35,591 nt of DNA, taken from the NCBI GenBank assembly GCA_023384455.1, contig JAHDWH010000039.1, positions 1 to 35,591 on the forward strand, in the 5' to 3' direction. Numbering within the stretch: the first letter of the stretch is position 1; the number at the start of each line of letters is the position of its first letter. The position numbers and the translations under genes were made by a program. Positions 3,582 through 21,223 of this stretch are shown here, in pieces. A model generated the notes under the pieces. The model made no database searches. It was given only the letters and a program-made list of their open reading frames with translations, and was not told where the DNA came from. The DNA is from Caldilineaceae bacterium (GTDB lineage Bacteria > Chloroflexota > Anaerolineae > Caldilineales > Caldilineaceae).

Positions 3582-3684
3582 GTAACTGTTCAGCCACCCC
3601 ACCCTACCCCTCCCCATTCCAGGGAGGGAACTGGAGCAACTCCTCCCCCACAGTGGGGGAGGTTGGGTGGGGGTGAGCAGTTAC
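3582..3684. mobile_element. MITE-like element, copy 3, with 8-bp target-site duplication
   Basis: This is a full 103-bp copy bounded by GTAACTGTTCA and TGAGCAGTTAC. The flanks carry an exact direct repeat GATTTTCC at 3574-3581 and 3685-3692, as expected for a target duplication left by transposition; TAC before each copy extends the identity to 11 bp. The element ends 24 bp before the ATG at 3709. The remainder of the gap from 3229 has only the hairpin and promoter listed separately. Confidence 0.85.
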
Positions 3685-5145: not shown

Positions 5146-7620
5146 GTGAATCGGATTCGGAAGCTATCCTACGTGATAGGGATTTTTCTAGCGATTGCGC
5201 TGACTGGTGCGGCGTTGGGACAAATCTCTACCAACTTTGACCTGCGCTGGTGGGCGCTTTCCAGCGGTGGCGATGCGCGTCAATCGACTAACTACCGGAT
5301 TGATGACTCGTTGGGCCAAATCGTCGATGCGGCCGTCAGTGGCAACTATCGGGTAGAAAGCGGTTTTGCGGGCGGTGCATCCACACCCGCGGCCACACCC
5401 ACCCGCACACCGACAACGGTCAATACCAGCACGCCGACACCGACTCGCACGGCCACACCCACCCGCACGCCGACAACGGCCAACACCAGCACACCGACAC
5501 CGACTCGCACACCGACAACGGCCAACACCAGTACACCCACACGAACTTCGACACCGACGACTGTGCCAACCGGGGGTGACAGCTTTGAGATCGACGACAC
5601 CTGTGCCCAGGCCAAAGGTATCAGCATTGATGGCGGCGGGCAGAGCCACAATTTCCACGTGGGGACAGATGTGGACTGGGTGAAATTCACCGCCCAGGCC
5701 AACAAAACCTATATTATTCAGGTGGAAAATGTGGGGAGCAAAGCCGATGCGGTCATCTTCCTCCACGACACCTGCGCCAGCGACCCGGCTACCTCTGGCA
5801 ACAACGCTTTCGGCTCCACCGTGCGTCTGGAGTGGGACTCTGTAAAAAACGGCGACTATTTCATCCGCCTGCAACAGTTCGACGGTACACTCTTTGGCGC
5901 ACAGGCCAACTATACGATTGCGGTGGCAATCGACAATGTGCCGCCCTCTGCGCCCACCAATCCCCGCTGTGTCTCCATCGACGCCACAACTGTTGGTGTG
6001 CAGTGGCGCAAAAGCCCGGAACGGGATGTGCGGAAATACCGCATCAGCTACAGCAACCTGAGCGGCACCTTCGCAGGCTCGGAGGATGTGGATGGGGCCG
6101 AGACCACCTATTATGAGTTGGGCAGTTTGACTACAGGCAGCAGCTACCGGATGAGCGTACAAGCCCTGGACTTCTCTGCCAATAAAAGTCCGGAGTCTGG
6201 GGAAGTCCAGTGCATTGCCCAAACGCCGGTGGACGCCACCCTGCCCAGTCTGGTCATCCAGCAGCCGACCAGTTCGTCCACCTATACCACCACCGCCGAG
6301 AAGATCACCCTGACCGGTCTGGCCGCGGACACGGGCAGCAACCTGAGCCGGGTACGGGTGCAGAATGTGACCAAAGGCGGCGAGAAGTGGGATTACACCC
6401 TGAGCGGGGCCAGCGATACCTGGCGGGTGGAGGATATGGAGCTGGGCGCGGGAGACAACAGCATCAGCGTCAGAGTCTATGACGAGGCGGGCAACAGCGC
6501 GGAGCAGACTGTTCTTGTAAAGCGGCTGGGCAACAGCCCTGGCGCGGTGATTATCATCGCCGGCCACAACGAGACTTTTGGCTTGCAGACGAATATCTAC
6601 AACTCTACCAACCGGGCCTACCGCATCTTCGAAAGCGCTGGCTTTACCGACGACGACATCTATTATCTGGCCCCGGTGGCCCAGGACGCGGACAAAAACG
6701 GCGTGGCCGATGAGGTAGACGCCACGGCCAGCCCAGCCGCTTTCCAGCAGGCAATTACCGTTTGGGCCAAGACGAAAGTGGGGCCGAACAAACCCCTCTT
6801 TATCTATATGATGGACCACGGGCTGGCCGACAAATTCTGTATCACTGGCTGCGCTGGGGCCAACAGCATCACACCAGACGAGATGGACGGCTGGCTGGAC
6901 ACCCTGGAAAGCCAGTCGGGGGTCACGGAGGTGACAGTCGTCTACGAGGCGTGTGTGTCGGGCAGTTTTATCCACCGCCAGGGCGGCGGTGTGGGGGACA
7001 GCATCAGCAAACCGGGGCGGGTGATTATTACGTCTACCGGTTTCAACAACAACGCCTACGCCTCGGCCCAGGGCGCTTATTTCTCGGATGCCTTCTTCTC
7101 TTGTGTGGCGGACAGCGGCAATCTGAAAGCCTGTTTCGACCAGGGCAAGGCCGCGGTGACGACGACCGGCGTCAACCAGACACCCTTCCTGGACGACAAC
7201 GGGGATGGGGTCTACAACCCCGTGGGAGATGGCAGCGTGGCGGTGAACCGCCATGTGACCCGCTTCTTCAGCTCCGTGCGCCCGGTTATCGCCAGTGTGG
7301 ATGTGCAGAAGAATGGGGCGAATGGAGTTCTCAGCGCCACAGTGGAAGAAGGGGCTGAACAGACGGAACTGGTCTGGGCGGCTATTTATGGGCCAACCTT
7401 CCAGGAACCGGCGGATGTGACCATCAATCTGAATGTGCCCGCGCTGAAATTGGAGCCGGTGGCCGGGCAACCGGGCAAATTTAGCGTCAACTATACGAAT
7501 GGTTTTGTGGATCCCGGCGACTACCGCATCATCTTCTACGCCCAGGACCGGCTGGGGCTGAATGCAGTCCCGGTTTCGCCCGGCCAGCAGCAGCTTTTCC
7601 TGCCATACATCAATCGGTAG
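5146..7620 (+). CDS. Secreted legumain-type (C13) caspase-fold peptidase with PPC and FN3 domains (824 aa)
   Basis: GTG start with GAGGA upstream. A signal peptide (residues 1-25) is followed by about 55 residues with a mature-protein look, then a Thr-Pro-Arg repeat linker (about 82-141), a pre-peptidase C-terminal (PPC) domain (145-263, with DTCAQA and VDWVKFTA), a fibronectin-III-like domain (265-357) and an Ig-like domain (363-463). The catalytic domain (about 465-681) begins GAVIIIAGHN and shows MMDHG with candidate catalytic His558 and VYEACVSGSF with candidate Cys603. This HG...EACxSGS pair is the signature of family C13 (legumain) in clan CD, which usually cleaves after Asn or Asp. The tail ends LFLPYINR, similar to two later proteins here. 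It lies 39 bp after the previous gene, so is probably in one operon. Peptidase fold and family are well supported; specificity and localisation are inference. Confidence 0.85.
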   Translation: MNRIRKLSYVIGIFLAIALTGAALGQISTNFDLRWWALSSGGDARQSTNYRIDDSLGQIVDAAVSGNYRVESGFAGGASTPAATPTRTPTTVNTSTPTPTRTATPTRTPTTANTSTPTPTRTPTTANTSTPTRTSTPTTVPTGGDSFEIDDTCAQAKGISIDGGGQSHNFHVGTDVDWVKFTAQANKTYIIQVENVGSKADAVIFLHDTCASDPATSGNNAFGSTVRLEWDSVKNGDYFIRLQQFDGTLFGAQANYTIAVAIDNVPPSAPTNPRCVSIDATTVGVQWRKSPERDVRKYRISYSNLSGTFAGSEDVDGAETTYYELGSLTTGSSYRMSVQALDFSANKSPESGEVQCIAQTPVDATLPSLVIQQPTSSSTYTTTAEKITLTGLAADTGSNLSRVRVQNVTKGGEKWDYTLSGASDTWRVEDMELGAGDNSISVRVYDEAGNSAEQTVLVKRLGNSPGAVIIIAGHNETFGLQTNIYNSTNRAYRIFESAGFTDDDIYYLAPVAQDADKNGVADEVDATASPAAFQQAITVWAKTKVGPNKPLFIYMMDHGLADKFCITGCAGANSITPDEMDGWLDTLESQSGVTEVTVVYEACVSGSFIHRQGGGVGDSISKPGRVIITSTGFNNNAYASAQGAYFSDAFFSCVADSGNLKACFDQGKAAVTTTGVNQTPFLDDNGDGVYNPVGDGSVAVNRHVTRFFSSVRPVIASVDVQKNGANGVLSATVEEGAEQTELVWAAIYGPTFQEPADVTINLNVPALKLEPVAGQPGKFSVNYTNGFVDPGDYRIIFYAQDRLGLNAVPVSPGQQQLFLPYINR

Positions 7621-7794
7621 CTGTAGGTGCGGTTTTGAACCGCACAGAGCAGGGGAAGCCGTCAACGTGCGGTTGGAAACCGCACCTACGGAAATACAAA
7701 GAAGTCAACTGTAGGTGCGGTTTTGAACCGCACAGAGCAGGGGAAGCCGTCAACGTGCGGTTGGAAACCGCACCTACGGAAATACAAAGAAGTC
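7621..7794. repeat. Two tandem GTAG-type REP hairpin pairs (86-bp units)
   Basis: Two identical 86-bp units (7621-7706 and 7709-7794) are separated by 2 bp. Each contains GTAGGTGCGG-TTTTGAACCGCAC and the inverse GTGCGGTT-GGAAACCGCACCTAC, so each is two small hairpins that can also pair as one long hairpin. A GTAG tetranucleotide abuts the hairpin foot on each strand, the recognition feature known for REP sequences handled by RAYT (TnpA-REP) transposases. The units fill the entire gap between the C13 and C25 peptidase genes. Confidence 0.85.
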
Positions 7795-7802
7795 CAGGCA
7801 AA

Positions 7803-10800
7803 ATGATGACATCCAACCTTCCTGTTTCCCATACATCCTCCCAACGACGCCAGGTGACCCCGCTCTGCGGCGCGGCGCTTGTCATCTTCTGCCTGCTGGC
7901 TATCTTCTTCTGGACAGTTGGACAAGACGCAGCCCAGGCAGCGCCCGACGCTGGGCCAGACCTGACGGTGGAGATCAGCCTCGACCCGCCGGTTCCCGCC
8001 GATGGGCAGCAGGTGACCATTCGTTTTATCGTGCGCAACAAAGGCACAAGTTCGACGGCTGGGGGCTTCACAGCCTATCTCTACGTGGACCCGGTGGATC
8101 GTCCGCCCACCCTTGCCACGCCAGGACGCTCCTACGGTTTTGCCGCGCTGGGTGCAAGCGCGTCGGCTCAGGGCGAGCGCACCCAAACCATCAGCGGCAA
8201 AGGCTGCAATCACATCATTTATGTCTGGGTGGATCGGGACAATCAGATCGCCGAGGAGAACGAGCAGAATAATCTCATCGCCCTGCCCTTCTGCGTGGGG
8301 GTAGAGTGCGAGGTGGACAGCCACGAGAACGACAACCAGTGCAGCGCGGCCAACTGGATCTTTGAGGGCGCGACCGAAGCCCGCTCCTTCTGTCACCCCA
8401 CGGATCGCAACCTGACCGACGAGGATTGGATCAAATTCACAGCGCTGACCGAAGTCACCTACACCCTGGCCGCGTCGAATGTGGGCCAGCACGCCGCACC
8501 CCAGATTGCCCTGCGCAGCGCGTGCGGCGGCGCGGAGATTGCCAACGGATTGACCAGCCTGGCCTGGCAACCCCCGGTGGCGGGGGTCTACTACGCCCGG
8601 GTCCAAAATAGCAGCGGGTTGCAAGGGCCGCTCACCGCCTATAGCCTGACCCTGACCAGCGCGACTGGGCTGACCGATAATTACGAACCGGACGACACCT
8701 GCGCCACGGCCCGGGAGATTCCCACAAATAACACCAAACAGACCCGACTTTTCCAAACACCGGGGGATACGGACTGGCTGCGCTTTACCACAAAAGCCGG
8801 GGAGAGCTTCGCAGTTGTCAGCAGCGGCGCGGGGGTAGGGGTCAACCCGGTCATTACCCTTTATAGCTCTTGCAACCAGAGCCGCAGCAGCGCCAGCGTA
8901 GCCCAAAGCGTAAACCGGGTGGAGGCCAGCAGCCCCGGCGACCAGATTTACTATGCCCGCATTACCAACCAGAACCCCAACCGTTTTGGTTCCAGCGCTA
9001 CCTACGATATCGCGGTGCTGGCTTCCACCTGTGTCAGCGACGACCAGGAGGAGGATGACAGCTTTGCCCAGGCCCGCCCGGTCACTGTCGGCGCGCCGGC
9101 CCGCACCCATAACTTCTGCCCGGCCGGGGAGCAGGACTGGGTGCGCTTTACAATGACCGCCACACAGGTCTATGTGCTGCGCACCAGCAATCTGGGCTTT
9201 GCCGCAGACACAGTGCTGACTCTGCACGACAGCCAGGGCAACCAACTGGCAACCAACGACGATTATGACTACGTGCGGGCCTCGCGCATCGTCTTCGAGC
9301 CATCGGTCAGCGGGGAGTACTACGCGATGGTACGTCACCGCCACCCGGAAGCCGCGGGGCCGAACACCAATTACGACTTTGCGGTGGAGACCGGTTTCTG
9401 TACCCTGGACGGAGGCGACGGCAACAATGGGGACAACGGACCGGGTGATGCCGCACCTCTGACGGCCAACACAACACCCCAGGCCCACAACTTCTGCGCC
9501 AACCCTCTCTCTGGCAGCCAGGGGGATCAGGACTGGCTGCGTTTTCCCGCCACCGCCGGCGGTGTCTATCGCATCTCGACCAGCAATCTGGGGCTGAACA
9601 GCGACACCTTTCTGCGTCTCTATGACCGGGATGGCAAAAGCCTGTTGGCAACCAACGACGATACAGGCAGCGGACGCTCGGCCACAATCGTCTTTACCCC
9701 GACGGTTTCCGGCGACTACTTTGTCCAGGTGACCCAATTCAACTCAGCCGTTTTTGGCCGGGAGACCGATTACAACGTCGAATTGCAGGCGAATATCCCG
9801 CCCACACCCACGCCCACGCCCACCGCCAGCCCGACGCCCACACCCACGCCCACGCCCCTGCCCACAGTGGACCCCTCGGGCGTGCGCACACTGATCGTCA
9901 CCAACCGGCAACGGCTGGAAACGCTCTACGGCACGAGCCGGGCCAGCGGGGTGATGGTGAAGCTCTTTAGCCTGGCGGATCATCCCCGGGTGGAGGGCGC
10001 TGTTCTGCTGGTGGAGAACAATCCGTCGGTAGCCGCGGCCTACGCCGCGTGGACGGCCAGCCCGGCGTCTCTTGCGGACACTACGCTGGCCAATGGGGTA
10101 GCCGCGGCTGTACGGGCCACTATTCTCTCCTTTGCCGCCAACGCCCCCCAACTGGAATATCTGGTCATCGCAGGTGATGACCGGGTGATCCCTTTCCGTC
10201 GGGTGGCCGAGGGCACCCTGGCCCAGCAGGAGGCGGACTACGCGACCGACGTGACCGCCAACACTACCACTGCCGCGGCCCTGGCCCAGAACCAGATTCT
10301 GACCGACGACTATTACGCGGACAAAGAACCCAGCACCTGGAGTGGGGGCGAACTCTATCTGCCCGACTATCCCATCGGGCGGCTCATCGAAGATCCAGAG
10401 GAGATTATCGCCTTCATCGAGAGCTTTCAGGCCGATGCGGTCAACGACGTGTCCAATGTGCTGGTGACGGGCTACGACTTTGTGCAGGACAGCGCAGCCC
10501 TGATGAAGCTGCTCTTTGAGAATGACGGGATGACCACCGACAGCACGCTGATTGGTCCTCTCTGGTCCGGCCAGGCGCTGGAGCAGAAACATCTCCAGTC
10601 GGCCACCCGCTTCGACATCCACGCCATCAACGGCCACTCCACCCATATTGCTACGGGCACGCCGGACAACAACGAAGTGACCGCGGCTGAGGTGGCCGCG
10701 GCGACGACAAATCTGGCCGGGGCGCTCGTCTATGCGGTGGGCTGCCACGCCGGGCTGAATGATCCGGGGCAGTTGGACCTGCCCCAGGCATTTGTGCGCC

Positions 10801-11951
10801 GGGGCGCCAATTATGTGGGCAATACGGGCTATGGCTGGGGGGGCGGTGGCATTGTCTACAGCGAGGCGCTGATGCGCAACTACAGCCGGGAGCTGCTGCG
10901 GGATGCCCAGGCCACCATCGGCGGGGCACTGGTGGCGGCCAAAAACAGATACCGCCAGCAGAGCTTCTCCTTCCGGGCCTACGATGCCAAAGTGCTGATG
11001 CAGAGCACCCTCTATGGGCTGCCTATGGCGGTTGTCACCAGCGGCGGCGCGCTCAGCGATGACGACCCCTTCCCCAGCGCACAGCAGAGTTTCCAGCCTC
11101 CCTCTTCCTTTGCCGAGGTGAATACAGGGGCCTTTAGCTATGGGCTGCCCGGCTCCTTCGGCGCCTTTGGCGAAAGCAGCGGCAGCGATGGCCGATCCTA
11201 CGATCTGGACGACAACGCCACCTTCAGCGCCGGCGCGCCCGTGCAGCCCCGCTACTATGCCGATGTGACCGCGCCGGCCGCGGGCCAGTTGCGGGGTGTT
11301 CTCTTTCTGGGCGGTGTCTACTCGGACGTAATCGGTTTTGATCCCCAAATCGCCCGCCCCCACAACGAATATGTGAATGAGACCGCGGAGCCAGCCTTTG
11401 GGGCCAGCGGGTGGTTCCCGGCTGTGCCTGTCTCCCTGCAAAACAGTGCGTCCATCTCGAACAGCGCCGACACCCTCGTTCTCTCGTTGGGCCAGTTCGA
11501 TCCAAACTCCAACACCCAGCGGCTCTTTGACCAGATGGCCCTCAACACCCTCTACTCCTTCAGCGCGGACCAGACCCCGGCGGAGATTCTCTTTGTGGAC
11601 GGTGTGCTGGACAGAGCCGCGGGCAAAGGGCGGGTGAAGGTGGACGCACAGGACGGAAGCGGGGTAAAGCGGGTAGTTCTCGCTTTCACCGATAACTCCC
11701 TGGCTGGGCCGCAAAGCTGGCAAAGCCGTGACCTGACCTACGATCCTGTGGCCGGTATGTGGACAGGTGAGATTACCGGCACAGTGCGCAGCCGCTTCTT
11801 TGTCCAGGCCGTGGATGCTGGCGGCAATGTGGCTGTGGCCGATAACAAAGGCGCCTATTATGCACTGACCGAACCCCTGCCGCTGGTCCCAGGCCGCGAT
11901 TTACCCCCAGGCTTTTCGCTCTATCTGCCCTCGATTCGAGGAAAAGATTAA
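7803..11951 (+). CDS. Secreted gingipain-type (C25) caspase-fold peptidase with CARDB and four PPC domains (1382 aa)
   Basis: The start is placed at 7803 (ATGATG), because the frame upstream runs through REP repeats; AGG lies just before it. A membrane-spanning signal (residues about 20-40) precedes a CARDB-like domain (50-135), four PPC-type beta domains (about 170-289, 292-407, 409-530, 534-662, each with an Asp-rich start and DWxRF), a Thr-Pro linker (666-688) and a peptidase domain (about 692-1100). The latter has LVIAGDDRVIPF, LPDYPIGRL, candidate catalytic His945 in INGHST and Cys981 in AVGCHAG, as in family C25 (gingipain, clan CD). A beta-rich C-terminal region follows, ending LYLPSIRGKD. 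Gingipains are extracellular Arg/Lys-specific proteases; specificity here is unknown. It follows the C13 peptidase in the same orientation. It is long for the family because of the N-terminal PPC array. Confidence 0.85.
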   Translation: MMTSNLPVSHTSSQRRQVTPLCGAALVIFCLLAIFFWTVGQDAAQAAPDAGPDLTVEISLDPPVPADGQQVTIRFIVRNKGTSSTAGGFTAYLYVDPVDRPPTLATPGRSYGFAALGASASAQGERTQTISGKGCNHIIYVWVDRDNQIAEENEQNNLIALPFCVGVECEVDSHENDNQCSAANWIFEGATEARSFCHPTDRNLTDEDWIKFTALTEVTYTLAASNVGQHAAPQIALRSACGGAEIANGLTSLAWQPPVAGVYYARVQNSSGLQGPLTAYSLTLTSATGLTDNYEPDDTCATAREIPTNNTKQTRLFQTPGDTDWLRFTTKAGESFAVVSSGAGVGVNPVITLYSSCNQSRSSASVAQSVNRVEASSPGDQIYYARITNQNPNRFGSSATYDIAVLASTCVSDDQEEDDSFAQARPVTVGAPARTHNFCPAGEQDWVRFTMTATQVYVLRTSNLGFAADTVLTLHDSQGNQLATNDDYDYVRASRIVFEPSVSGEYYAMVRHRHPEAAGPNTNYDFAVETGFCTLDGGDGNNGDNGPGDAAPLTANTTPQAHNFCANPLSGSQGDQDWLRFPATAGGVYRISTSNLGLNSDTFLRLYDRDGKSLLATNDDTGSGRSATIVFTPTVSGDYFVQVTQFNSAVFGRETDYNVELQANIPPTPTPTPTASPTPTPTPTPLPTVDPSGVRTLIVTNRQRLETLYGTSRASGVMVKLFSLADHPRVEGAVLLVENNPSVAAAYAAWTASPASLADTTLANGVAAAVRATILSFAANAPQLEYLVIAGDDRVIPFRRVAEGTLAQQEADYATDVTANTTTAAALAQNQILTDDYYADKEPSTWSGGELYLPDYPIGRLIEDPEEIIAFIESFQADAVNDVSNVLVTGYDFVQDSAALMKLLFENDGMTTDSTLIGPLWSGQALEQKHLQSATRFDIHAINGHSTHIATGTPDNNEVTAAEVAAATTNLAGALVYAVGCHAGLNDPGQLDLPQAFVRRGANYVGNTGYGWGGGGIVYSEALMRNYSRELLRDAQATIGGALVAAKNRYRQQSFSFRAYDAKVLMQSTLYGLPMAVVTSGGALSDDDPFPSAQQSFQPPSSFAEVNTGAFSYGLPGSFGAFGESSGSDGRSYDLDDNATFSAGAPVQPRYYADVTAPAAGQLRGVLFLGGVYSDVIGFDPQIARPHNEYVNETAEPAFGASGWFPAVPVSLQNSASISNSADTLVLSLGQFDPNSNTQRLFDQMALNTLYSFSADQTPAEILFVDGVLDRAAGKGRVKVDAQDGSGVKRVVLAFTDNSLAGPQSWQSRDLTYDPVAGMWTGEITGTVRSRFFVQAVDAGGNVAVADNKGAYYALTEPLPLVPGRDLPPGFSLYLPSIRGKD

Positions 11952-12151
11952 GGAAACTATACTTGACAAGATGACAAGATGACGGAGTGACAGGTCAAGA
12001 AATGTCAGTTTATGCCCGTGTCGAATATTGATTCCTGCTTATCTCTGCCCAGTGCAGGGTCAGTACGGCATCGGGTATAACGAAGAAGCGGATGCGATCT
12101 TCATCCGCTCAACTGTGGGTCCTATTCTTTTAGCTGAAAGGGAAACAAGCA

Positions 12152-14332
12152 ATGTCAACCCAATCTCGCACGCGCAGTCTCTCCTTGCGTCTTTTGTGGG
12201 TCGTCTCTCTTGTGCTACTTCTGACTCTCTTTCTCTTTTCGGCTGTCTGGGCCGGGGAGGAAGAAGAACAACCGGGCGGTGCTGGCGAACCAACAACCGC
12301 CGCCGGGGCCGATGCGCCCCAAGCCACAGCCGACGATGGCGGGGACTGGGAGCTGGGTGTTCACGGCTCCGCGGGTGATCTGACTTCGGCCACCGCGGCC
12401 GAACGGACCGGTATGGGCTTCTGGCTGGCACCGGCCAGCAACTGGGTTTGGCGCTACAGTTACGCCGAATCCAGCGCCTGGGAAGAGGATTTCAAACGCG
12501 CGGCCCTGGGTGGAACCGAAAACTCGTATATCGACGCAGTGGACCTCCAATTCTATGTAGGCCACGGCTGGCCCGGCGGCTTCACCTTTGCCAACAACAC
12601 CCACGACGACGGCTCTCTTGTGCCGAATGATTGCTTCCGCTCCTGGGGGGACAACGACAACGAATGGTTGGCCCTCACCTCTTGCCAGGTGTTGGCTGAC
12701 TCCAATCTGTCCAACTGGGCCGCTTGTATGAACGGGCAACACCTGATTATGGGCTTTGTGACCAACGCCAGCGCCTATAACAATGCGTCCAGCACCCAGG
12801 CCTACCACTTTGGCCGCTATATCCGGCAGAACTACAGTATGCCCCAGGCCTGGTACAAAGCCTGTGACGTGGCCCAGCGGGGACGCGTCACCCGTACCCT
12901 TATCAACGAACTGGCCTGTCTGAACGACAAACCCAATCTCGGCCAGGTCTGTGCCGATTCTTTCGACACCGATGCCTGGTATCAGACCCACGCCTGCGGC
13001 ACCGAGACAGCCATAGCGGTACCCACGGCAGACATCCGCACCCTGCCGGTCTTTGTTATGGCCCCCTACGGTCTGGAGGATGCCAAGTCTGACCTCCGCA
13101 CACTGGGCAATATCTTCAGCATTCCGGTCAACCCGACCCTCACCGCCAGAGTGCAGGACCAGATGGCTTCGGATTACTTCACCGGCACGGCCGGCGCGCT
13201 GGCCCTGGAGCTGGACAAAGGCAGTGGGATCTTCAGCTTCTCGAATCTGGACGAACTGTGGACCGCATCCCAGGCAGAACAGGCAATGGCCGTCAACGCC
13301 GCCTCGGCCAATTACATCGACAGCGACGATGCCCGCCGTGTTGCCGACAACTTTCTGCAAACAAACAACCTGAACGGGAGCGGCGCTACTTTCTACGAGG
13401 TGATTTCCGACACCATCTCCAGTTCCATCGACACTTCCAATCTCACCAGGGCTGCTTTGATGGTAGCCCAGATGGATGAAACACCGCTGCTCTGGCAGGT
13501 GATCTACTCCCGACGACTGACGGCAACGGTCGTCAGCGCGGCGGGCGTTGCCGCCGAGATCGAATTTTCGGTGGTGGGGCCGGGGGCCAAGCAGAAGGTC
13601 TATGTGCCTATTACAGCCGCTGTGGGCGCGGCCAGCCTGCTGGAAACAATGCCCGTTGGCGTGCAGGGCGGCTGGCGTGAGGTTGCACCTGCGATCAACG
13701 CGGCCACGGGCGACGCACTCTCGGTGGCTATCCTGACCGCAGAGCAGGTGAAGGCTCTCTATCTGGACCTGCCCGACGACGTTACCCTTAACGACGTTCC
13801 CCTGGACGTGACGAAGCGGGAGATTGTCAGCCACACCATCGCCTACTGGGAGGAGGCCAGCGGCGTAAGCCAGGGCCAACTGATCCCGGTTTATGAGTTG
13901 AAGGTCAATATGACCGAACGCCAAAGCCAGGCAGTGGTCGAGGAATTTGTCTACGTCCCGGCCAGCCAACTCTATATGCGCCCCCTGGCGCGTATCATCG
14001 ACGCGCCGACAGGACCCATTATGGCCGGCACAGCGATTACCTTAACTGCGGCCGATGCCACCCAAACCCTGAAGAGCCTGAATGTTGCCAACTATGACAT
14101 TGTGCTGGGCAACGGCGACTACTCCTACCAGTGGTTCCTGGATGGGGAAAAGATCGGCGATGGGCGCGTGCTGAGCAACTTCGTTGTGCCCAACAGCGCA
14201 GACCCCCGGGAGATCAGACTGACCTTCGAACTCCGGGTGACCGATATTGCCAGCCCCAACGAATCCGTGTCTACGGATCGTCTGGCATTGGCCGGCAGCC
14301 TGGGCCTCTACCTACCCTCGATTAGTCGGTAG
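12152..14332 (+). CDS. Exported protein with a third caspase-like His-Gly/Cys signature (726 aa)
   Basis: A clear signal peptide (residues 1-35) is followed by an acidic, Ala-rich stretch. The domain at about 60-260 has LQFYVGHGWPGGFTF (candidate His138) and, 40 residues on, EWLALTSCQVL (candidate Cys178). The spacing and hydrophobic strand before each resemble clan CD peptidases, and the region resembles the uncharacterised DUF6345-type domain as I recall it; I cannot confirm that by search. Residues 300-600 have no domain I recognise; an Ig-like segment at about 620-700 (YSYQWFLDGEKI) precedes the tail LYLPSISR, shared with the two preceding peptidase genes. AGGGA lies 9 bases before the ATG. 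Position after C13 and C25 peptidase genes supports a shared extracellular proteolytic job, but enzymatic activity is an inference. Confidence 0.7.
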   Translation: MSTQSRTRSLSLRLLWVVSLVLLLTLFLFSAVWAGEEEEQPGGAGEPTTAAGADAPQATADDGGDWELGVHGSAGDLTSATAAERTGMGFWLAPASNWVWRYSYAESSAWEEDFKRAALGGTENSYIDAVDLQFYVGHGWPGGFTFANNTHDDGSLVPNDCFRSWGDNDNEWLALTSCQVLADSNLSNWAACMNGQHLIMGFVTNASAYNNASSTQAYHFGRYIRQNYSMPQAWYKACDVAQRGRVTRTLINELACLNDKPNLGQVCADSFDTDAWYQTHACGTETAIAVPTADIRTLPVFVMAPYGLEDAKSDLRTLGNIFSIPVNPTLTARVQDQMASDYFTGTAGALALELDKGSGIFSFSNLDELWTASQAEQAMAVNAASANYIDSDDARRVADNFLQTNNLNGSGATFYEVISDTISSSIDTSNLTRAALMVAQMDETPLLWQVIYSRRLTATVVSAAGVAAEIEFSVVGPGAKQKVYVPITAAVGAASLLETMPVGVQGGWREVAPAINAATGDALSVAILTAEQVKALYLDLPDDVTLNDVPLDVTKREIVSHTIAYWEEASGVSQGQLIPVYELKVNMTERQSQAVVEEFVYVPASQLYMRPLARIIDAPTGPIMAGTAITLTAADATQTLKSLNVANYDIVLGNGDYSYQWFLDGEKIGDGRVLSNFVVPNSADPREIRLTFELRVTDIASPNESVSTDRLALAGSLGLYLPSISR

Positions 14333-14347
14333 GGGTAACTACTCAGG

Positions 14348-14420
14348 CTCAGGGTGCGACGCACTCGCCCCACTCATTTTGCAGTGGAATCTACTCCTGG
14401 CGAGTGCGTCGCACCCTGAG
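14348..14420. repeat. Long palindrome after the exported-protein cluster
   Basis: A perfect 22-bp inverted repeat (CTCAGGGTGCGACGCACTCG.. at 14348-14369 and its inverse at 14399-14420) encloses a 29-nt spacer, 15 bp after the stop codon of the previous gene. Outer bases GTAACTACT and AGTAATTAC extend the symmetry. It could end transcription of the cluster or be another REP-type element; no T-tract is present. A small CTCAGG/CCTGAG inverted pair follows at about 14445-14472. Confidence 0.75.
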
Positions 14421-14519
14421 TAATTACCGGTAGGGGTAAAATTACTCAGGTGCATCACATCCCGAGCCTGAGCAGGTACCATTCTGGATTGAAACGCCAA
14501 TAGGCGTGTGGTAAGAAGC

Positions 14520-14575
14520 AGCGGGAGGTATTTACTACATCTGGCACAAGGCGGATGTAGTAGACACCTCCCGCT
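14520..14575. promoter_or_regulatory. Hairpin in the leader of the gene at 14601
   Basis: AGCGGGAGGT (14520-14529) pairs with ACCTCCCGCT (14566-14575), and TACTACATC (14533-14541) pairs with GATGTAGTA (14554-14562), giving two stems with a symmetric 3x3 internal loop and a 12-nt apical loop. It ends about 10 bases before the AAAGGAGA ribosome site of the next gene, so it is either a leader structure or a REP-like element. Confidence 0.55.
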
Positions 14576-14600
14576 GGTCTACGACAAAGGAGAAACGTCG

Positions 14601-15422
14601 ATGGAAGATTGGCTGCGCAACGAGTGGGAGGAGTTCCGCTTACGATTGGAGAATACCGACCGTAAAGCAGCGATGGAGCAGAAGTCAGGCGCGCACTTTG
14701 GCCCCATTCACGAAGCTCTCGATCCCAGAGTAGAATCCGAGTGGCTGAACTATATTGAGGAGTTTGATCGCCAGTTTGAACAAGCCCAACGCATCCCTTT
14801 GCGTCAATTCCTGGGAGACCCGGTCGTAAAGCTTTCGGCCGATGTACCAGACGAGATGCTGGATGGGGAATTGGACGCGCTTCTGGAAATGCTGGCTGGA
14901 CAGAATGTGGCAGTGGATTGCATCTGCGAAGTGGAAGACAGGGAACTCTATCGCTTTATCGTGGAGGAATTATTGGACGAAGAGATCGACGATGTACGCA
15001 TCCCCGGGTCCATATGTCACTATATCTACGAAGAGTTTCACCCCAACGACATCTACGATGTGTCCGAGATGGTGCGTTCACTTATCACCGATCTTTTGCG
15101 GGGTTCGTTAGAATTTCGGGAGCATATACTCTATAATTTCAGCCGTGAGCAACTCTTTCGCTCTGACGGCCATCCCCAAAGCTGGGAGGAATTGACCCAG
15201 CACATCGACGCCTGGTTTGCCATCCGTCCCCAGGTGAAAGTCATCGAGACTGAAATAGGGGTCTGCACGGTAGATGGCGATAACGCCTACGCGGAGGCTG
15301 ATGTCCGCTGGACGACCACTGCCGGCGTCATTACGCAAGGCCGCGCCACCTGCTGGCTCATCCGTAGCCCTTATGGCGGCTGGGATGTAGTGCAGGCCAG
15401 TGTGCCCGGAGTCCCTTTATAG
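14601..15422 (+). CDS. Acidic protein of unknown function (273 aa)
   Basis: I do not recognise this protein. It starts at the ATG at 14601, with AAAGGAGA about 9 bases upstream; the frame runs back to 14508 but through a palindrome. There is no signal peptide or membrane segment, so it is probably cytoplasmic. Residues 1-190 are strongly acidic and look helical, with many Glu/Asp-Trp-Leu pairs (EDWLRNEWEEF at the start, IVEELLDEEIDDVRI near 117). The last 70 residues (from about 200, SWEELTQHIDAWFAIRP, then YAEADVRWTTTAGV and GRATCWLIRSPYGGWDVVQAS) look like an NTF2/SnoaL-like beta sheet with a helix, which is a structural guess. It stands alone between hairpin-rich gaps. Codon use and SD support a real gene. 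Confidence 0.7.
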   Translation: MEDWLRNEWEEFRLRLENTDRKAAMEQKSGAHFGPIHEALDPRVESEWLNYIEEFDRQFEQAQRIPLRQFLGDPVVKLSADVPDEMLDGELDALLEMLAGQNVAVDCICEVEDRELYRFIVEELLDEEIDDVRIPGSICHYIYEEFHPNDIYDVSEMVRSLITDLLRGSLEFREHILYNFSREQLFRSDGHPQSWEELTQHIDAWFAIRPQVKVIETEIGVCTVDGDNAYAEADVRWTTTAGVITQGRATCWLIRSPYGGWDVVQASVPGVPL

Positions 15423-15620
15423 GGAAGCGAGGCCACCTGCCACCCGCCACCCGCCCCTCTCCACATTCCCTCCACAATCCCCACATACGCTCCTAACCCG
15501 GCCCGGATAGACTTGAGCCATCACAGCAGACAAGAGGCAGCAAGCGCAGCCCGCTGTGAAGTACCGGTACAGTACACAGAGTGAACGGCTCAATTTCAAC
15601 CGAATTAGGAGAAACAACCA

Positions 15621-16484
15621 ATGAACACGCGAGTCAAGAAGTACAGTGTCATCGTCGGGGCGGCCCTGGTAGGTGTGCTGACTTTCAGCGCTATCAGCTT
15701 TGCCCAGACCCCCGACACGTCTACCAGCAGCACCCCGATTGTCGAGCGCATCCAGCAGGGCTTTCAGAATGGCTTTCAGCGGGGTGGCCCCGGTGGTCGG
15801 GGCGGGCATGGCGGGCCGGATGGTTCTGGAAAAATGGGCGAGATGCGGGGCGAGGGTCACGCAGCGCTGGCCGAGGCCCTGGGCATGACCGCCGAGGAGT
15901 TGCAGACGGCCACCCAGAGCGGCCAGACGCTTGAGGAGATTGCCGCCGAAAAGGGCGTGGACCTGCAAGCCTTTGCCCTGACCGAGGCCAAAGAACATCT
16001 GGCCCAAGCCGTAACCGATGGCAAACTGACCCAGGAAGAAGCCGACGCCAAACTGGCTGAAATCCAGACCGCCATCGAAAATAGCGAATTCCCAGGCAAG
16101 CGGGGCGGTGGATTCGGGATGCACGGGCAGCGGGGCGAACGCGACGGCGACCTGGCCGAAGCCCTGGGCATGACCCAGGAGGAGCTGCGCACGGCCATCC
16201 AAAATGGGCAGACCGTCGAGGAGGTTGCCGCCGAAAAGGGCTTTGATCTCGACGCCTTTCAAGCAGAGAAACAGGCCGAACGGCTGGCCGAAGCCCAAGA
16301 GCGATTGGCCCAGGCTGTGGAGGAGGGCAAACTGACCCAGGAGCAGGCCGACCAGATTCTGGAGCAGATGCAGAACGGCGAACGCCCGGAGTTTGGCGGA
16401 CGGGGCGAACGGGGCGGTCAGCGTGGCCCCCGGGGTGGACAGAACGGTCTCCCCTTCGAACGACCGGCCAACCAGAATCGGTAA
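15621..16484 (+). CDS. Exported two-repeat protein, DUF2680-like (287 aa)
   Basis: A signal peptide (residues 1-29, ending ISFAQ) is followed by a Gly/Arg-rich stretch (about 48-75) and two homologous units of about 65 residues (75-150 and 182-255). Each unit reads LAEALGMTxEEL, GQTxEE(I/V)AAEKG, then a helix and LAQAV..GKLTQE.AD..L; this matches the pattern I associate with the DUF2680/YckD-type repeat of exported Gram-positive and Chloroflexota proteins. The C-terminus is again Gly/Arg-rich (GGRGERGGQRG). TAGGAGA lies about 9 bases before the start. The region 15423-15620 upstream shows no further gene. Function is unknown; an envelope or extracellular role is likely from the signal peptide. 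Confidence 0.75.
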   Translation: MNTRVKKYSVIVGAALVGVLTFSAISFAQTPDTSTSSTPIVERIQQGFQNGFQRGGPGGRGGHGGPDGSGKMGEMRGEGHAALAEALGMTAEELQTATQSGQTLEEIAAEKGVDLQAFALTEAKEHLAQAVTDGKLTQEEADAKLAEIQTAIENSEFPGKRGGGFGMHGQRGERDGDLAEALGMTQEELRTAIQNGQTVEEVAAEKGFDLDAFQAEKQAERLAEAQERLAQAVEEGKLTQEQADQILEQMQNGERPEFGGRGERGGQRGPRGGQNGLPFERPANQNR

Positions 16485-16525
16485 GGCGTAGTGCATAAGG
16501 TGGACAAGCCACGATTTGTGTACGG

Positions 16526-16628
16526 AAACGTGAAGAGGTGAAACGTGAAGACGTGAAACGTGAGAGTATGTGACGACACCTCACGTTTCACGTTTCACCG
16601 GTCTGGCCGAGGAACTAACCCATATGCG
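16526..16628. repeat. ACGTGAA-rich palindromic repeat (family B), copy 1
   Basis: The 103-bp unit consists of iterated GTGAAACGTGAAGACGTGAA, an inverted CTCACGTTTCACGTTTCAC arm, then CCGGTCTGGCCGAG and AACTAACCCATATGCG. It is about 93 percent identical to 35450-35552. It lies in the convergent gap between the exported repeat protein and mutL, and AACTAAC/GTTAGCTCCT adds a small hairpin at its right end. Confidence 0.85.
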
Positions 16629-16659
16629 TTAGCTCCTCGCTGGTACGGAGTAAAAGCTA

Positions 16660-16706
16660 AAAGGTGAAGGGGGAGCGTATGCGACATACGCTCCCCCTTC
16701 ACCTTT
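16660..16706. terminator. Perfect 22-bp hairpin between convergent genes
   Basis: AAAGGTGAAGGGGGAGCGTA.. at 16660-16681 is exactly complementary to 16685-16706, leaving a 3-nt loop (CGA). It lies midway between the convergent ends at 16484 and 16745, so a bidirectional terminator is plausible, although A/T tracts are short. It could also be a repeat-element relic. Confidence 0.55.
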
Positions 16707-16744
16707 CACGCGTCAGCCGGCGATTCACGACCCTACCCGGTGAG

Positions 16745-18709
16745 TTACGTCCGCTTAAACGCCTTCTCCAGCTCCCCGGACGATAGCTGAATCATCGTGG
16801 GCCTGCCGTGGGGACAGGTGCGGGGGGACTGGCATTCCTCCAACTGACGCAGCAGTTCCTTCATTTCGATGTCGCTGAGAATCTGCCCGGCTTTGATCGA
16901 AGCCCGTTTGCAGACCATTTTGACCAGCCGGGCTTCCACTTCGGCCCCCACCAAATCCTGCTCCTGGGCCAGCCCCTGGACAATCTCCTCCAACACCCGG
17001 CCCGCATCCTGCCCAGCCAGCACACTGGGCACCGTGCGCACCAGCCAGGTATCCCCGCCAAAGGGTTCCACATCAAAACCGACCGCGGCCAGTTCGGGCA
17101 TAAAGAGCGTCACCTGCCCGGCCAGCGCGTCGCCCAGATGGAGGGTCAGCGGGTTCAGCAGTCCCTGGCGGGGGATGCCGCCGCCAGGAGTAAAGCGCTG
17201 GGCCATAAATTTCTCGTACATCACCCGCTCGTGGGCCGCGTGCTGGTCGATCAGAAACATCCCTTCCGGCCCCTCGGCCACAATATACATTGCGCCCACC
17301 TGGCCGACGACGCGCAGGGGGGGGAGGGTAGTGGGCGCTCGCGGCGACGGTGCAGCCGGAGGCGCGGGATGGGGTGCTGGGATGATGGGGGATGTGTCTG
17401 GGGCCAGGGGGACGGGCAGGGGCGCAGATAGCGGCGCGGCATCGCGTGGCACGTAGAGGTCCATCGCCCGCTGGGTCTGGCCGGCGGCGAGAATGCTCCC
17501 CCGGCGTTCGGCCCAGCCCGGGGGCAGCCCGGCGCTGGGGGATTCCCCGGGCACGGACCAGCCGTCGGCGTCATCAGAATCGTCGCGCCCCGGGCCCATC
17601 TCAAAGCCGGGCACGCTTGCGTTCTCCACAGCCACCCGGCGCACGGCCTTTTGCACGGCGGAGAAGACCTCCCGTGCCTCCTGAAAGCGCACCTCCGTCT
17701 TGCGCGGGTGGACATTCACATCCACAGCCGCCGGGTCCAGTTCTACAAAAATAACGCCGATGGGATAGCGGCCCACAGGCAGAAGGGTGTGATAGGCCTG
17801 AATCACCGCGTGGGTCAGGCTGCGGTCCTCCACATAGCGACGGTTGACAAAGAGATCGATCCCGCCCCGGTTGGCCCGTGTCAACACCGGCAAACTCACA
17901 AAACCCGAAACCCGAATCCCAGCAATCCCTTCCTCCCTTCCTCCCTTCCCCCCTTCCTCCCCTGCCCGAAAGTCAATCTCCTTCGCAGCCCGCACCCGAT
18001 CCCCACTCCCCAATCCCCGATCCCCGATCCCCAACTTCCCCACCCCCACCATCAACCGGGCATTTTCCAACCCGTAAATTTTTGCCAGCACATCGGTCAC
18101 ATCCCCGCTGCCCGTGGACTGAAAGAGCAGCCGCCCGTCGTTGACCAGACTGAAACGGCGTTCGGGCCAGGCCAGGGCATAGCGTTGGACAATCGACGAA
18201 ATGTGGCCGGTTTCGGTAGACTCTTTGCGCAGGAATTTCTTGCGGGCCGGGGTGTTGAAGAAGATGTGCTCGACAGTGACAATCGTGCCGACGGGCATCC
18301 CCGCCGCGCCTTCGGAGACGATCTGCCCGCCTTCGGCGCGTAGCTGCGCGCCGGCCTGGGCGCTGGTGTGGCGGCTGGCCAGGGTCAGGTGGCTGACCGC
18401 GGCGATGCTATAGAGGGCTTCGCCCCGGAAGCCAAAGGTGGCGATGCGGTTGAGATCGTCAGCGGTGCGCAGTTTGCTGGTGGCGTGGCGGTGCAGAGCC
18501 AGGGAAAGTTCGTCGGCGGGGATGCCGTGGCCGTCGTCGATCACCCGCAGCAGGCGCTGGCCCCCCTCGCGAATCTCCACGCGAATCTCCCCCGCGCCCG
18601 CGTCCAGGCTGTTTTCGATCAGTTCTTTGGCAACGTTGGCCGGGCGCTCTACCACCTCGCCCGCGGCAATTTTGCCCGCCACATCCGCCGATAGGAGGTG
18701 AATGTTCAT
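16745..18709 (-). CDS. mutL: DNA mismatch repair protein MutL, endonuclease type (654 aa)
   Basis: The N-terminal GHKL ATPase carries IAAGEVVERP (about residue 14), ENSLDAGA (about 32), DDGHGIP (about 58) and TFGFRGEAL (about 91). The transducer domain follows (NVHPRKTEVRF near 332), then a Pro-rich linker and a C-terminal dimerisation domain. That domain contains DQHAAHERVMYE (488-499), matching the DQHA-x2-E-x4-E endonuclease motif, and CPHGRP near the end, so this MutL should be able to nick DNA, as in bacteria without MutH. ATG at 18709 fits the universal MNIHLL start; the frame is open 10 codons further. Residues about 224-262 are an unusual low-complexity insertion (GIGDRGLGSGDR, EEGGKGGREEG) inside the transducer domain. 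It lies 47 bp after the methyltransferase gene, probably in the same transcript. No mutS is in the window. Confidence 0.95.
   Translation of the reverse strand: MNIHLLSADVAGKIAAGEVVERPANVAKELIENSLDAGAGEIRVEIREGGQRLLRVIDDGHGIPADELSLALHRHATSKLRTADDLNRIATFGFRGEALYSIAAVSHLTLASRHTSAQAGAQLRAEGGQIVSEGAAGMPVGTIVTVEHIFFNTPARKKFLRKESTETGHISSIVQRYALAWPERRFSLVNDGRLLFQSTGSGDVTDVLAKIYGLENARLMVGVGKLGIGDRGLGSGDRVRAAKEIDFRAGEEGGKGGREEGIAGIRVSGFVSLPVLTRANRGGIDLFVNRRYVEDRSLTHAVIQAYHTLLPVGRYPIGVIFVELDPAAVDVNVHPRKTEVRFQEAREVFSAVQKAVRRVAVENASVPGFEMGPGRDDSDDADGWSVPGESPSAGLPPGWAERRGSILAAGQTQRAMDLYVPRDAAPLSAPLPVPLAPDTSPIIPAPHPAPPAAPSPRAPTTLPPLRVVGQVGAMYIVAEGPEGMFLIDQHAAHERVMYEKFMAQRFTPGGGIPRQGLLNPLTLHLGDALAGQVTLFMPELAAVGFDVEPFGGDTWLVRTVPSVLAGQDAGRVLEEIVQGLAQEQDLVGAEVEARLVKMVCKRASIKAGQILSDIEMKELLRQLEECQSPRTCPHGRPTMIQLSSGELEKAFKRT
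17927..18040. repeat. In-frame low-complexity/heptamer insertion inside mutL
   Basis: The plus strand reads iterated ATCCCCG/ATCCCCA heptamers (about 17998-18035) and CTTCCTCC-type octamers (about 17930-17960). The encoded peptide is Gly/Arg/Glu-rich and is absent from MutL proteins as I know them. The reading frame is kept. Confidence 0.7.
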
Positions 18710-18756
18710 AGCCGAATTTTCTACCTGACAGGGTGACAAGGTGAAAAAGTGTCGCC

Positions 18757-20343
18757 TTATGCGTCCCTTTTGAGTATAGCATCTACACTGACCACTGCCA
18801 ACAGTTCGCCGCCTGCCACGTCCAGCAGGCGCACGGCCACCGGCCCCACTGCTCTGTTGCTCAGTGGCAAAGTGTAGACGCCTTTTACCAGCGCGGCCTT
18901 GCCCTTGGGCGCGTCCACCAGCCCCGCCCGAAAGACCTGCCCGTCATAGGCCGGATCGATCAGCACCGCCTGCACCCTCGCCCGCCAATCCCCGGACGAC
19001 TCCACCCCGGCCTGGGAAATCAGCCCGTCCATCGCCGGGCTGCGAAATGACCGAATCTCCACCCGCAGACCGCCCTCTTCTCTCGTCACAGCAACTTGCG
19101 CGTCCGCTCCCCCTGTCACCCCTTCACCCTGCCACCCTGTCACTCCCTCATCCCCCACCCGCCAAATCTCACCTGTTGCCTCCTCACCCCCCGCCACTCG
19201 CAATTCGCAATTCGCAATTCGCAACCCACTCGTCCGCACCGCCCGCCAGTTGGCATCACAGCCGATCCAGCCGCGGCCCAGTTCCCCGGCCACGGCCACA
19301 GTCGTGCCAGAGCCGACGAAGGCGTCCAGCACCGTATCGCCCGGATTGGTGGCTGTCTCGATAATCCGGCGCAGCAGCCCCGTCGTCTTTTGGGTCGGGT
19401 AGTTCACGTCCTCGCTGGGGATCGTGCCCAGGCCGGGCAGGTCCTCCCACAGATTGTCCACGGTCCGGCTGACGACGTAGCGGCTGCGCCCCCGCTTCGT
19501 CAGGTAGTATTTGATGCCGATATTGCCCCCGTTCGAGGCGTAGACCCGGCGCGCCTGTTCGTCCACAATCACCTGACCGCTGTGGGGGGCATAGACCCGC
19601 CCAGCCCGGTGCAGCTCCACCAGCTTCTCAAAGCTGTAGCTGCCCGGATGGGAGGTGCGGAAAAAGCCCTTTTCATCCTGCATAAATTGGGCCGCGGCCT
19701 CGGCCCGGCTCAGGACAATCTCCCGCCGGGGTGGATTCCAGGCGGGCTGGCCTTCCCCGGTGCGGCCAAAAATGTGGATGTAATGGGTGCTGTGGGGGAA
19801 GTAGTGGGCGTGGACCTTCGCACCGCGGGCAGTCTGGCTGCGCCAGGCAATCGTATTCAGAAAGCACTCCGGGCCAAAAATTTCTTCCAACAGCAGGTGC
19901 AGATGGCTCTGGCGGCGGTGGTCGCAGTGCAGCCAGAGTGTGCCGTTGGGGGCCAGCAACTCCCGCAGGAGAAGTAACCGCTCGGCCATAAATTGGAGAT
20001 AGCCGCCGGGCGGCCAGCCGTCCGTATATTCGGTGCGCTCGCCGATCTGGACGGCTGGCTGGCCGCGCAGCCGCACCCGACTGGTCCAGGTCACGCCGGA
20101 ATCGTAGGGGGGGTCGATATAAATAAGCTGGACTTTGCCCGCGTAGCCCTGGGCCAACAGCCAGGCCAGCGAATCCCGATTGTCGCCGTGCAGGAGCAGG
20201 CCGCTTTGGGCGGCGGGGAAACGTTCGACCATTCGGGCCCCGGGGGCCGCCATTTCCAACGCAAGACGCTTGCCCGGCCACTGTAAGACCGACCCCTGTG
20301 AGATCTCCGTATGGGTTGAGAGGGTAATTCGTGCTGGATTCAC
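18757..20343 (-). CDS. Site-specific DNA methyltransferase, beta-type N6A/N4C (528 aa)
   Basis: Residues 73-81 (LIYIDPPYD) are the catalytic motif IV, and residues 338-348 (VLDAFVGSGTT) are the SAM-binding motif I. Motif IV before motif I is the beta order of N6-adenine or N4-cytosine methyltransferases, as in type II and type III enzymes. A TDGW..LQFMAERL segment near 107 and YPTQKTTGLLRRII near 315 also fit the family. Residues about 374-422 are filler-like (repeats of GCAATTC heptamers and GTGAxxG pieces in the DNA), followed by a 100-residue domain that I do not recognise. The start at 20343 is GTG, with AGAGG about 13 bases upstream; internal ATGs (for example residue 31) are alternatives. 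No restriction gene adjoins it, so it is an orphan enzyme, upstream of mutL. The base modified and the recognition site are not predictable. Confidence 0.88.
   Translation of the reverse strand: MNPARITLSTHTEISQGSVLQWPGKRLALEMAAPGARMVERFPAAQSGLLLHGDNRDSLAWLLAQGYAGKVQLIYIDPPYDSGVTWTSRVRLRGQPAVQIGERTEYTDGWPPGGYLQFMAERLLLLRELLAPNGTLWLHCDHRRQSHLHLLLEEIFGPECFLNTIAWRSQTARGAKVHAHYFPHSTHYIHIFGRTGEGQPAWNPPRREIVLSRAEAAAQFMQDEKGFFRTSHPGSYSFEKLVELHRAGRVYAPHSGQVIVDEQARRVYASNGGNIGIKYYLTKRGRSRYVVSRTVDNLWEDLPGLGTIPSEDVNYPTQKTTGLLRRIIETATNPGDTVLDAFVGSGTTVAVAGELGRGWIGCDANWRAVRTSGLRIANCELRVAGGEEATGEIWRVGDEGVTGWQGEGVTGGADAQVAVTREEGGLRVEIRSFRSPAMDGLISQAGVESSGDWRARVQAVLIDPAYDGQVFRAGLVDAPKGKAALVKGVYTLPLSNRAVGPVAVRLLDVAGGELLAVVSVDAILKRDA
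19075..19224. repeat. Filler repeats inside the methyltransferase gene
   Basis: About 24 bp of GCAATTC heptamers (19200-19223) and CCCTGTCAC-type iterations (about 19111-19160) lie within the reading frame, right after the SAM-binding region. Similar strings (CTGACAGGGTGACAAGGTG) occur in the gap before mutL at about 18724-18742 and at 11962-11995. Confidence 0.65.
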
Positions 20344-20345
20344 GG

Positions 20346-20374
20346 TTGACGTTTAGCCTCTGGCTTGTTATAAT
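20346..20374 (+). promoter_or_regulatory. Strong sigma70-type promoter for the 58-aa exported peptide
   Basis: TTGACG (20346-20351), 17-bp spacer, perfect TATAAT (20369-20374). It points to the plus-strand mini-gene at 20436 and starts 3 bp from the opposite-facing methyltransferase start, so the two are divergent. Confidence 0.75.
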
Positions 20375-20435
20375 CGACCCACTTCGCAAAGCATATGTAA
20401 TGTCTACTGTGCAATGATATCTCTGGAGAAATGAA

Positions 20436-20612
20436 ATGAGTTATTCGCTTTTTAGCAATCGTCGTCTCTGGTTTGTGCTGGGTTTTGCCCTGCTTCTACT
20501 GCTGGCCGTCTCCTATGCCCTGACAGAGACAACCCTGGGAGCTAACTTGACAACCCTTTACCTGCCACTCATCGCCAAAGGCATCAAAATGTGTGGCACG
20601 ATTCCCTGTTGA
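20436..20612 (+). CDS. Exported mini-protein with YLPLI tail motif (58 aa)
   Basis: This small frame starts at ATG 20436, with GGAGA about 7 bases upstream. Residues 9-29 (RRLWFVLGFALLLLLAVSYA) form a signal peptide or membrane anchor; a short segment TETTLGANLTT follows and then LYLPLIAKG (41-49), the motif that ends the three caspase-like proteins of this window. It finishes with a short extension containing two Cys (KMCGTIPC). A near-consensus promoter (20346-20374) and a rho-independent-type hairpin (20647-20687) frame it, making a self-contained unit. I know no function. It may be a bare carrier of the sorting motif or the remnant of a longer exported protein. Confidence 0.7.
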   Translation: MSYSLFSNRRLWFVLGFALLLLLAVSYALTETTLGANLTTLYLPLIAKGIKMCGTIPC

Positions 20613-20705: not shown

Positions 20706-20732
20706 GCAGGTCGGACTGTCAGTTCGACCTAC
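20706..20732 (-). repeat. GTAG-type REP hairpin overlapping the end of the MoaD-like gene
   Basis: Read on the minus strand it is GTAG directly followed by GTCGAACT-GAC-AGTCCGACCTGC, a 10-bp stem with one mismatch. It belongs to the same family as the pair at 23316-23379. Its GTAG contributes the TAG stop codon (20729-20731) of the overlapping gene. Confidence 0.75.
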
Positions 20733-21158: not shown

Positions 21159-21223
21159 GTAGCTGTTCAGCCACCCCACCCTATCCCTCCCCATTCCAGA
21201 GAGGAAACTGGAACAACGCCTCA
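21159..21223. mobile_element. MITE-like element, copy 4 (left half only)
   Basis: GTAGCTGTTCAGCCACCCCA and the following bases match the left 65 bp of copy 3 with several substitutions; the right half is absent. It sits exactly at the point where the large-subunit gene is interrupted. Confidence 0.8.

Follow-up and report, generated by a model that had tools for sequence, protein, structure and literature searches.

A short C-terminal tail of exported proteins in Caldilineaceae and other Chloroflexota that probably marks them for sorting to, or holding at, the cell surface

We analysed a contig of 35,591 nucleotides (the window; JAHDWH010000039.1, our contig C135) from the Caldilineaceae assembly GCA_023384455.1, a 6.77-Mb draft genome of 448 contigs that is 98.6% complete with 6.1% contamination, and found that three large exported proteins encoded in it end in a short tail with the consensus [LIV][YF]LPx[IV]x(R). 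The results below give strong support to a C-terminal tag that is under selection and shared among exported proteins. It is well supported, too, that this tag is a linear stretch of a few residues, [LIV]-[YF]-L-P-x-[IV]-x-[R/K], on Sec-exported proteins, most of them without another visible anchor. Judged from sequence, the tail probably marks these proteins for a system that sorts them to the cell surface or holds them there. The first-pass annotation of the window had placed the tail in four exported proteins; this holds for three, while in the fourth, a protein of 58 residues, the motif lies 12 residues before the end. The same annotation had described signal peptides on all four, otherwise unrelated domain content and a neighbour without the tail. 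These points were borne out: the simple hydropathy rule finds the four signal peptides, Pfam assigns C13/fn3, CARDB/PPC and DUF6345 to the large proteins, and the neighbour at 3709-5106 is exported and untailed.

In the window DNA, the [YF]LPx[IV] pattern has four matches, which are the four motif sites, against 1.5 expected from shuffles. Since four matches were reached in 6 of 100 shuffles, DNA counts within the window alone prove nothing, and the evidence for the tag therefore rests on the position of the motif and on its recurrence. Our sample of the own genome consisted of 60 stretches from contigs picked by number and 20 from long contigs, some with a known motif match; together with the window it held 1,136,746 bases and 839 called genes. 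Genes were called with a home-made hexamer gene finder and signal peptides with the hydropathy rule, so that the protein classes are approximate. Among the 686 sampled proteins that end inside their stretch and were not classed as membrane proteins, 17 of 37 [YF]LPx[IV] motifs stood exactly two residues from the C-terminus, compared with 0.033 expected from the internal rate, and Arg was the last residue in 14 of these 17 tails. The genome has 56 DNA matches to the strict pattern YLP[hydrophobic][IV]; of the 50 that we read, 21 fell in a likely coding frame.

The motif was concentrated on exported proteins. The core motif occurred in the last 12 residues of 11/34 secreted proteins without a further transmembrane (TM) helix and of 14/663 others (p=1.9e-9), a comparison to which the window and contigs with a known match contributed; on the number-picked contigs only, the counts were 4/15 and 6/429 (p=1.6e-4). 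The pattern [YFW]LPx[IVLM] was present in the last 15 residues of 12/87 exported proteins, where shuffled ends gave 0.05, of 12/566 proteins classed as other (0.7 expected) and of 0/120 membrane proteins. On the number-chosen contigs, a wider pattern at the end was found in 6/52, 4/368 and 0/75 proteins of these classes, respectively. Thus the motif is far commoner at the C-termini of exported proteins than chance allows, the opposite of what the first-pass annotation had named as a refutation, and the exact position together with the shuffled C-termini ruled out chance or composition as the origin of the tail. Tail-like ends, scored over the last 20 residues, distinguished 17/34 secreted proteins without a further TM helix from 2/25 lipoprotein-like ones (p=7e-4), and were seen on 0/70 proteins with a further TM helix. 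Two of the 29 tail-like ends in the own sample were discarded by eye as false (a ThiS-like protein at window 20729-20995, and L077 14596-15597). The remaining 27 comprised 14 with a signal peptide by rule, 5 that gain one when the start codon is changed and the rule relaxed, 4 that run off their stretch and 4 without a signal peptide; these last were two proteins with runs of N, one fragment-like and one with a hydrophobic start lacking a basic residue. A signal peptide was therefore present in 19 of the 23 tail bearers whose start lies in the stretch, 5 of them by another start codon and the laxer rule.

Two side observations concern these ends. In L107-L109 (G000 C410 1-60000), eight tail ends lie within 60 kb and several of them resemble one another over the last 20 residues; the two bearers scanned there are C13-like. 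L061 1582-2613, in the own genome, encodes an exported protein with a hydrophobic stretch and basic residues at its end, giving it a CTERM-type look.

The tail sits behind very different proteins. Pfam domains among 31 bearers scanned were C13, C25, C11, S8, RCC1, kelch, PKD, FG-GAP, F5/8, PPC, CARDB, DUF11, CarboxypepD_reg, GH114, CAP, LRR, VWA, amidase_2/PA14, SBBP and SdrD_B, and three of the 31 had no Pfam match. The tail also follows Pro/Thr linkers such as PTPTGTASPTYTIYLPAIQR. It thus comes after many different folds and not after one common domain; a place inside a beta-strand of a common domain was what the first-pass annotation had named as refuting a tag. None of 56 distinct tails had a TM-like 19-mer in its last 45 residues; 43 had one Lys or Arg in the last eight residues, 8 had two and 5 had none, and Cys occurred in the last 20 residues of 3. 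Selection on the tail was visible in the DUF6345 family, in which the named relatives of the window gene come from Caldilineaceae, Litorilinea and Anaerolineales metagenome-assembled genomes (Chloroflexota). The Leu and Pro of the tail were invariant in ten DUF6345 proteins, of which nine share 31 to 79% identity with the window protein, whereas the ten columns before these two residues were 9 to 47% identical. Across the nine of these genes that were compared, all codon differences at these two residues were synonymous (Leu 20/20 pairs, Pro 14/14), while those at the x positions mostly altered the residue. Tails of the fetched relatives include LFLPTLIR, VFLPSVIR, IYLPTVNR and TYLPAITK. A search of the PDB with the DUF6345 profile gave no match at E 0.1.

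To follow the tail across the phylum, we searched 301 genomes with the strict DNA pattern [YF]LPx[IV]xR-stop, using the reversed pattern as control; family and genus tallies were summed by hand. Matches exceeded controls in families f24 (107:18, 19 genomes), f34 (41:2, 7 genomes) and f5 (29:11, 6 genomes) and, at 10:2, in our own, but not in f2 (23:24, 17 genomes), f29 (40:52, 21), f22 (0:2, 18), f30 (2:2, 16) or f32 (1:1, 19). The own family is represented by 41 genomes: 21, from 14 genera, gave 253:28, and the 20 from the genera g181, g186 and g203 gave 8:14, a division made after the counts had been seen and in which 12 of the 14 positive genera are represented by one genome each and two are weak (3:1 and 3:0). 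Such presence and absence by genus within one family agrees with a dedicated system. Exported proteins with ends of the IYLPLIxR type were also present in stretches from ten genomes of this survey, 23 of these 40 stretches having been picked because they held a match.

C25 peptidases provided a set selected by domain instead of by tail. We read 50 C25 loci; ten more, L262-L271 (weak partial matches, all but one from g186), were set aside as other proteins. Six of the 50 were kept apart: three from g181, two that run off (L218, L227) and L209, in which a run of N precedes a motif-less end. The other 44 readable ends (40 tabulated, plus L212, L219, L233 and L251) were classed by eye: 28 had [YFH]LPx[IVLM] at the end or close to it, 14 were degenerate (VPLVQR-like) and 2 had no tail (L214, L272). 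The scripted pattern matched 30 of 44 rows of the C25 table, a count that includes g181 and one wrong frame. In contrast, none of the three g181 C25 peptidases (L248, L258, L259) was tailed. Because g181 keeps these proteins without the tail and is a genus without tail excess, the sequences hint at a partner that is present or absent at the level of the genome. PorU/gingipain-family C25 peptidases (L206-L235, L244-L261, L272, L273) were common in certain Chloroflexota families, and in others we found none.

Copies of the octapeptide also occurred away from the C-terminus. It stood shortly behind a candidate signal peptide in L022, L199, L203 and L020 and, by a stricter rule, near the N-terminus in L075, in a 68-residue protein of L099 and in L185 (another genome). 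L189 has three copies, the last of them C-terminal, and L026 has two internal copies plus a C-terminal VFMPIISR; no signal peptide was seen in either. These sequences suggest that the octapeptide is also used near the N-terminus, although the numbers are small.

The explanation that we rate highest, with about even confidence, is that the tail serves to dock or retain proteins for display at the surface, through a partner in the envelope, a sheath or the matrix. A tagged protein would leave the cell by Sec export, and its tag, uncleaved, would dock non-covalently into that partner, perhaps as an added beta-strand; the partner would keep the protein at the surface, and after its loss the tag would decay. 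We favour an uncleaved binding motif because the tail combines a hydrophobic-aromatic-Pro core with a basic end, its bearers mostly have no other anchor, and copies exist near the N-terminus; octapeptides directly behind candidate signal peptides fit docking better than processing of an end. More tentatively, and with less than even confidence, we propose an undescribed surface-display code of Chloroflexota in which the octapeptide, at either end and without membrane anchor or cleavage, would dock proteins onto one envelope receptor gained or lost by genera, and in which the 58-residue micropeptide may cap, compete for or regulate that receptor.

Several observations weigh against docking at the surface. 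The candidates searched included no receptor for the tag, and both the addition of a strand and non-covalent binding are conjecture. The degenerate VPLVQR class weakens the consensus. Several secreted proteins are untailed, for example those at 3709 and 15621 of the window. The 17 even stretches of genome G238 encode 14 secreted proteins that lack a further TM helix, of which one has the core tag, so that the tag is far from general among secreted proteins there. Some bearers are lipoprotein-like (the 2/25 above and also L092 13350-15917), and the tag is thus not confined to anchorless proteins. Finally, tail-like ends occurred on 17/449 cytosolic or other proteins and on 5/114 membrane proteins; the start-codon readings suggest that in many of these a signal peptide was missed.

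A different possibility is that the tail is a cleaved sorting signal, removed by a PorU-like C25 peptidase or another surface transpeptidase that joins the protein to an envelope component. Such a role agrees with the occurrence of C25 in 15/15 tail-rich and 1/15 tail-poor genomes, where the exception, G192, has a C25 protein that itself ends HLFLPLVAGD. Likewise, C25 was found in 25/28 genomes with an excess of at least 3 tail matches and in 25/273 others (counted by hand; 50/301 genomes of the phylum, weak matches included). Moreover, the best PDB match of the own C25 protein L234 was PorU (6za2, E 4.9e-12), with gingipains next (2.9e-9 and weaker), and according to PMC11285876 PorU, too, bears a C-terminal domain of the system to which it belongs. 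Other findings spoke against this role. In the own family, full C25 was present in 15/16 tail-positive genomes and also in 3/3 of g181, which has no tail excess; in the 13 genomes of g186 and g203 searched there was no full C25. G307 and family f11 (G208, G276) have tails without full C25. As the obligatory processor C25 had looked strong by co-occurrence, but the family contrast and the tails that C25 proteins themselves carry make it more likely a common cargo, with a processing role possible. Similar octapeptides near the N-terminus of some exported proteins further disfavour obligatory C-terminal cleavage, since N-terminal and internal copies are unsuited to cleavage of an end. We consider a cleaved signal rather unlikely.

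A C-terminal aromatic and hydrophobic signal would also resemble the beta-signal of outer-membrane proteins, and the tail might direct export, recognised by a translocator in an outer envelope layer, instead of anchoring the protein. Part of PMC7332563 reports that, of three Chloroflexales imaged, two have an outer layer that looks diderm-like and whose nature is unknown; the same part reports no bamA homologue in the Chloroflexales strains analysed. The bearers scanned here match soluble domains, not barrels, and we regard this export signal as unlikely. That the tail does no more than close a fold, as its last strand or as a cap, is considerably less probable: the DUF6345 tail does lie within ~20 residues of the end of the conserved domain, but tails also end subtilase, C25, RCC1, kelch/PKD, GH114 and LRR proteins or follow Pro/Thr linkers, and the three g181 C25 proteins retain their domain without it. 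PDZ and tail-specific proteases read C-termini, so the tail could in principle be a tag for extracytoplasmic quality control; copies near the N-terminus have no free carboxylate, and conservation together with absence from whole genera fits a dedicated system better, which leaves quality control the least probable of these explanations.

Among partners for the docking tag, the first-pass annotation had pointed to a co-distributed membrane protease or transferase. Neither sortase nor exosortase accounts for the tail distribution. Sortase occurred in 19/20 tail-bearing genomes, being absent from the tail-bearing G168, and in 19/29 others; exosortase (EpsH) was above the cut-off in 1/15 tail-rich genomes (G011) and in 0/15 others. 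The SLH domain was found in 0/30 genomes, its control search being positive in 4/14 genomes. Sortase, exosortase and SLH were accordingly rejected as partners; subtilase, considered as a specific partner, was uninformative, being present in 28/30 genomes. SprA_N was found in 0/30 genomes, but its control genomes were silent as well, which makes this result uninformative. No description of the motif was found among the open-access literature matches listed, and no NCBIfam model matched the tail in the 12 tail or motif proteins scanned, in line with the earlier statement that no characterised system with this motif is known. A search of a plasmid collection gave no match.

The 58-residue protein is little more than a signal peptide plus the tag. 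It reads ...LYLPLIAKGIKMCGTIPC, and its end is AKGIKMCGTIPC. Four of the six further genomes searched in the genus had an orthologue, at 69-81% identity, and in these orthologues YLPL and one Cys near the end were invariant. All four orthologues have TTGACG and TTATAA upstream in the same place, and the terminator scan at the gene found none. The features of the window are listed in the table below.

Table. Tailed proteins, their motifs and related features of the window
Feature	Positions	Strand	Basis and remarks
Exported neighbour without the tag	3709..5106	+	Gene call, Pfam (no family at E 0.001), signal peptide
Exported C13 (legumain-like) peptidase with fn3 domain; tailed	5146..7620	+	Pfam (PPC match below cut-off), gene call, signal peptide
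C-terminal tag LFLPYINR of the C13/fn3 protein	7594..7617	+	End ...QQLFLPYINR; core 7597-7611
Exported CARDB/PPC protein	7806..11951	+	Pfam, signal peptide; open reading frame opens at 7635, likely start near 7806
C-terminal tag LYLPSIRGKD of the CARDB/PPC protein	11919..11948	+	End ...FSLYLPSIRGKD; core 11922-11936
Exported DUF6345 protein	12152..14332	+	Pfam; relatives on four Chloroflexota contigs (L141-L144) keep the tail
C-terminal tag LYLPSISR of the DUF6345 protein	14306..14329	+	End ...SLGLYLPSISR; sequence, alignment of relatives
Sigma-70-like promoter of the 58-residue gene, TTGACG-17-TATAAT	20346..20374	+	Promoter scan; 11/12 consensus
Secreted micropeptide of 58 residues: signal peptide, LYLPLI, Cys-containing end	20436..20612	+	Gene call, orthologues
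LYLPLI motif inside the micropeptide, 12 residues before its C-terminus	20556..20573	+	Sequence

Repeats were also noted in the window. An exact tandem duplication of 86 bases (7621-7794) separates two tail-bearing genes and includes GTGCGGTT..AACCGCAC-type inverted repeats. A dispersed element of ~60 to 100 bases has several copies (1-63, 1858-1960, 3582-3684, 21159-21222), and sequence similar to it is, by eye, seemingly read into predicted proteins of L037, L079 and L107. Short tandem repeats of GTGAAACGTGAAGAC lie inside a ~100-base copy at two places (16508-16628 and 35432-35591).

How Chloroflexota retain enzymes at their surface is not settled according to the literature found, and their envelope is debated in part of PMC7332563. 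As a sorting code, a tag of eight residues that does without a membrane helix would be unusually small. The tag would give a sequence rule for predicting surface proteins of Chloroflexota, related genera with and without it form a natural experiment able to reveal the partner, and, if portable, it could serve for display.

With respect to known systems, the tag differs from the LPXTG, PEP-CTERM and Por systems that the first-pass annotation had named as examples. Proteins handled by sortase end in an LPXTG-type site, a TM helix and a basic tail; the tail described here likewise places Leu-Pro near the C-terminus of exported proteins, but lacks the Thr-Gly site, the TM helix and the basic tail. 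SLH is a folded repeat domain for attachment to the cell wall, and an octapeptide differs from it in kind, although non-covalent retention at the surface, as we infer it here, would be common to both. In Type IX secretion, as a part of PMC4804311 describes it, the signal is a folded, seven-strand Ig-like C-terminal domain cleaved by PorU; in both cases a C-terminal signal is found on exported peptidases, among which C25 is common, but here the signal is an octapeptide instead of a folded domain. The MYXO-CTERM signal of myxosortase is tripartite according to part of PMC11980579, with a motif containing an invariant Cys, a TM helix and an Arg-rich end, whereas our tails have no TM helix and Cys is rare in them; as in MYXO-CTERM and in GlyGly-CTERM/rhombosortase (PMC3237569, in part), however, the tag is C-terminal, typical of its lineage and carried by proteins that are, here presumptively, at the surface. 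PEP-CTERM/exosortase, according to part of PMC1569441, combines a motif with a TM helix and a basic cluster; it is carried by diverse exported proteins and has a sporadic distribution. The tails have neither a TM-like stretch nor a basic cluster, but they resemble PEP-CTERM in being a short C-terminal homology that is shared by many diverse exported proteins and distributed sporadically.

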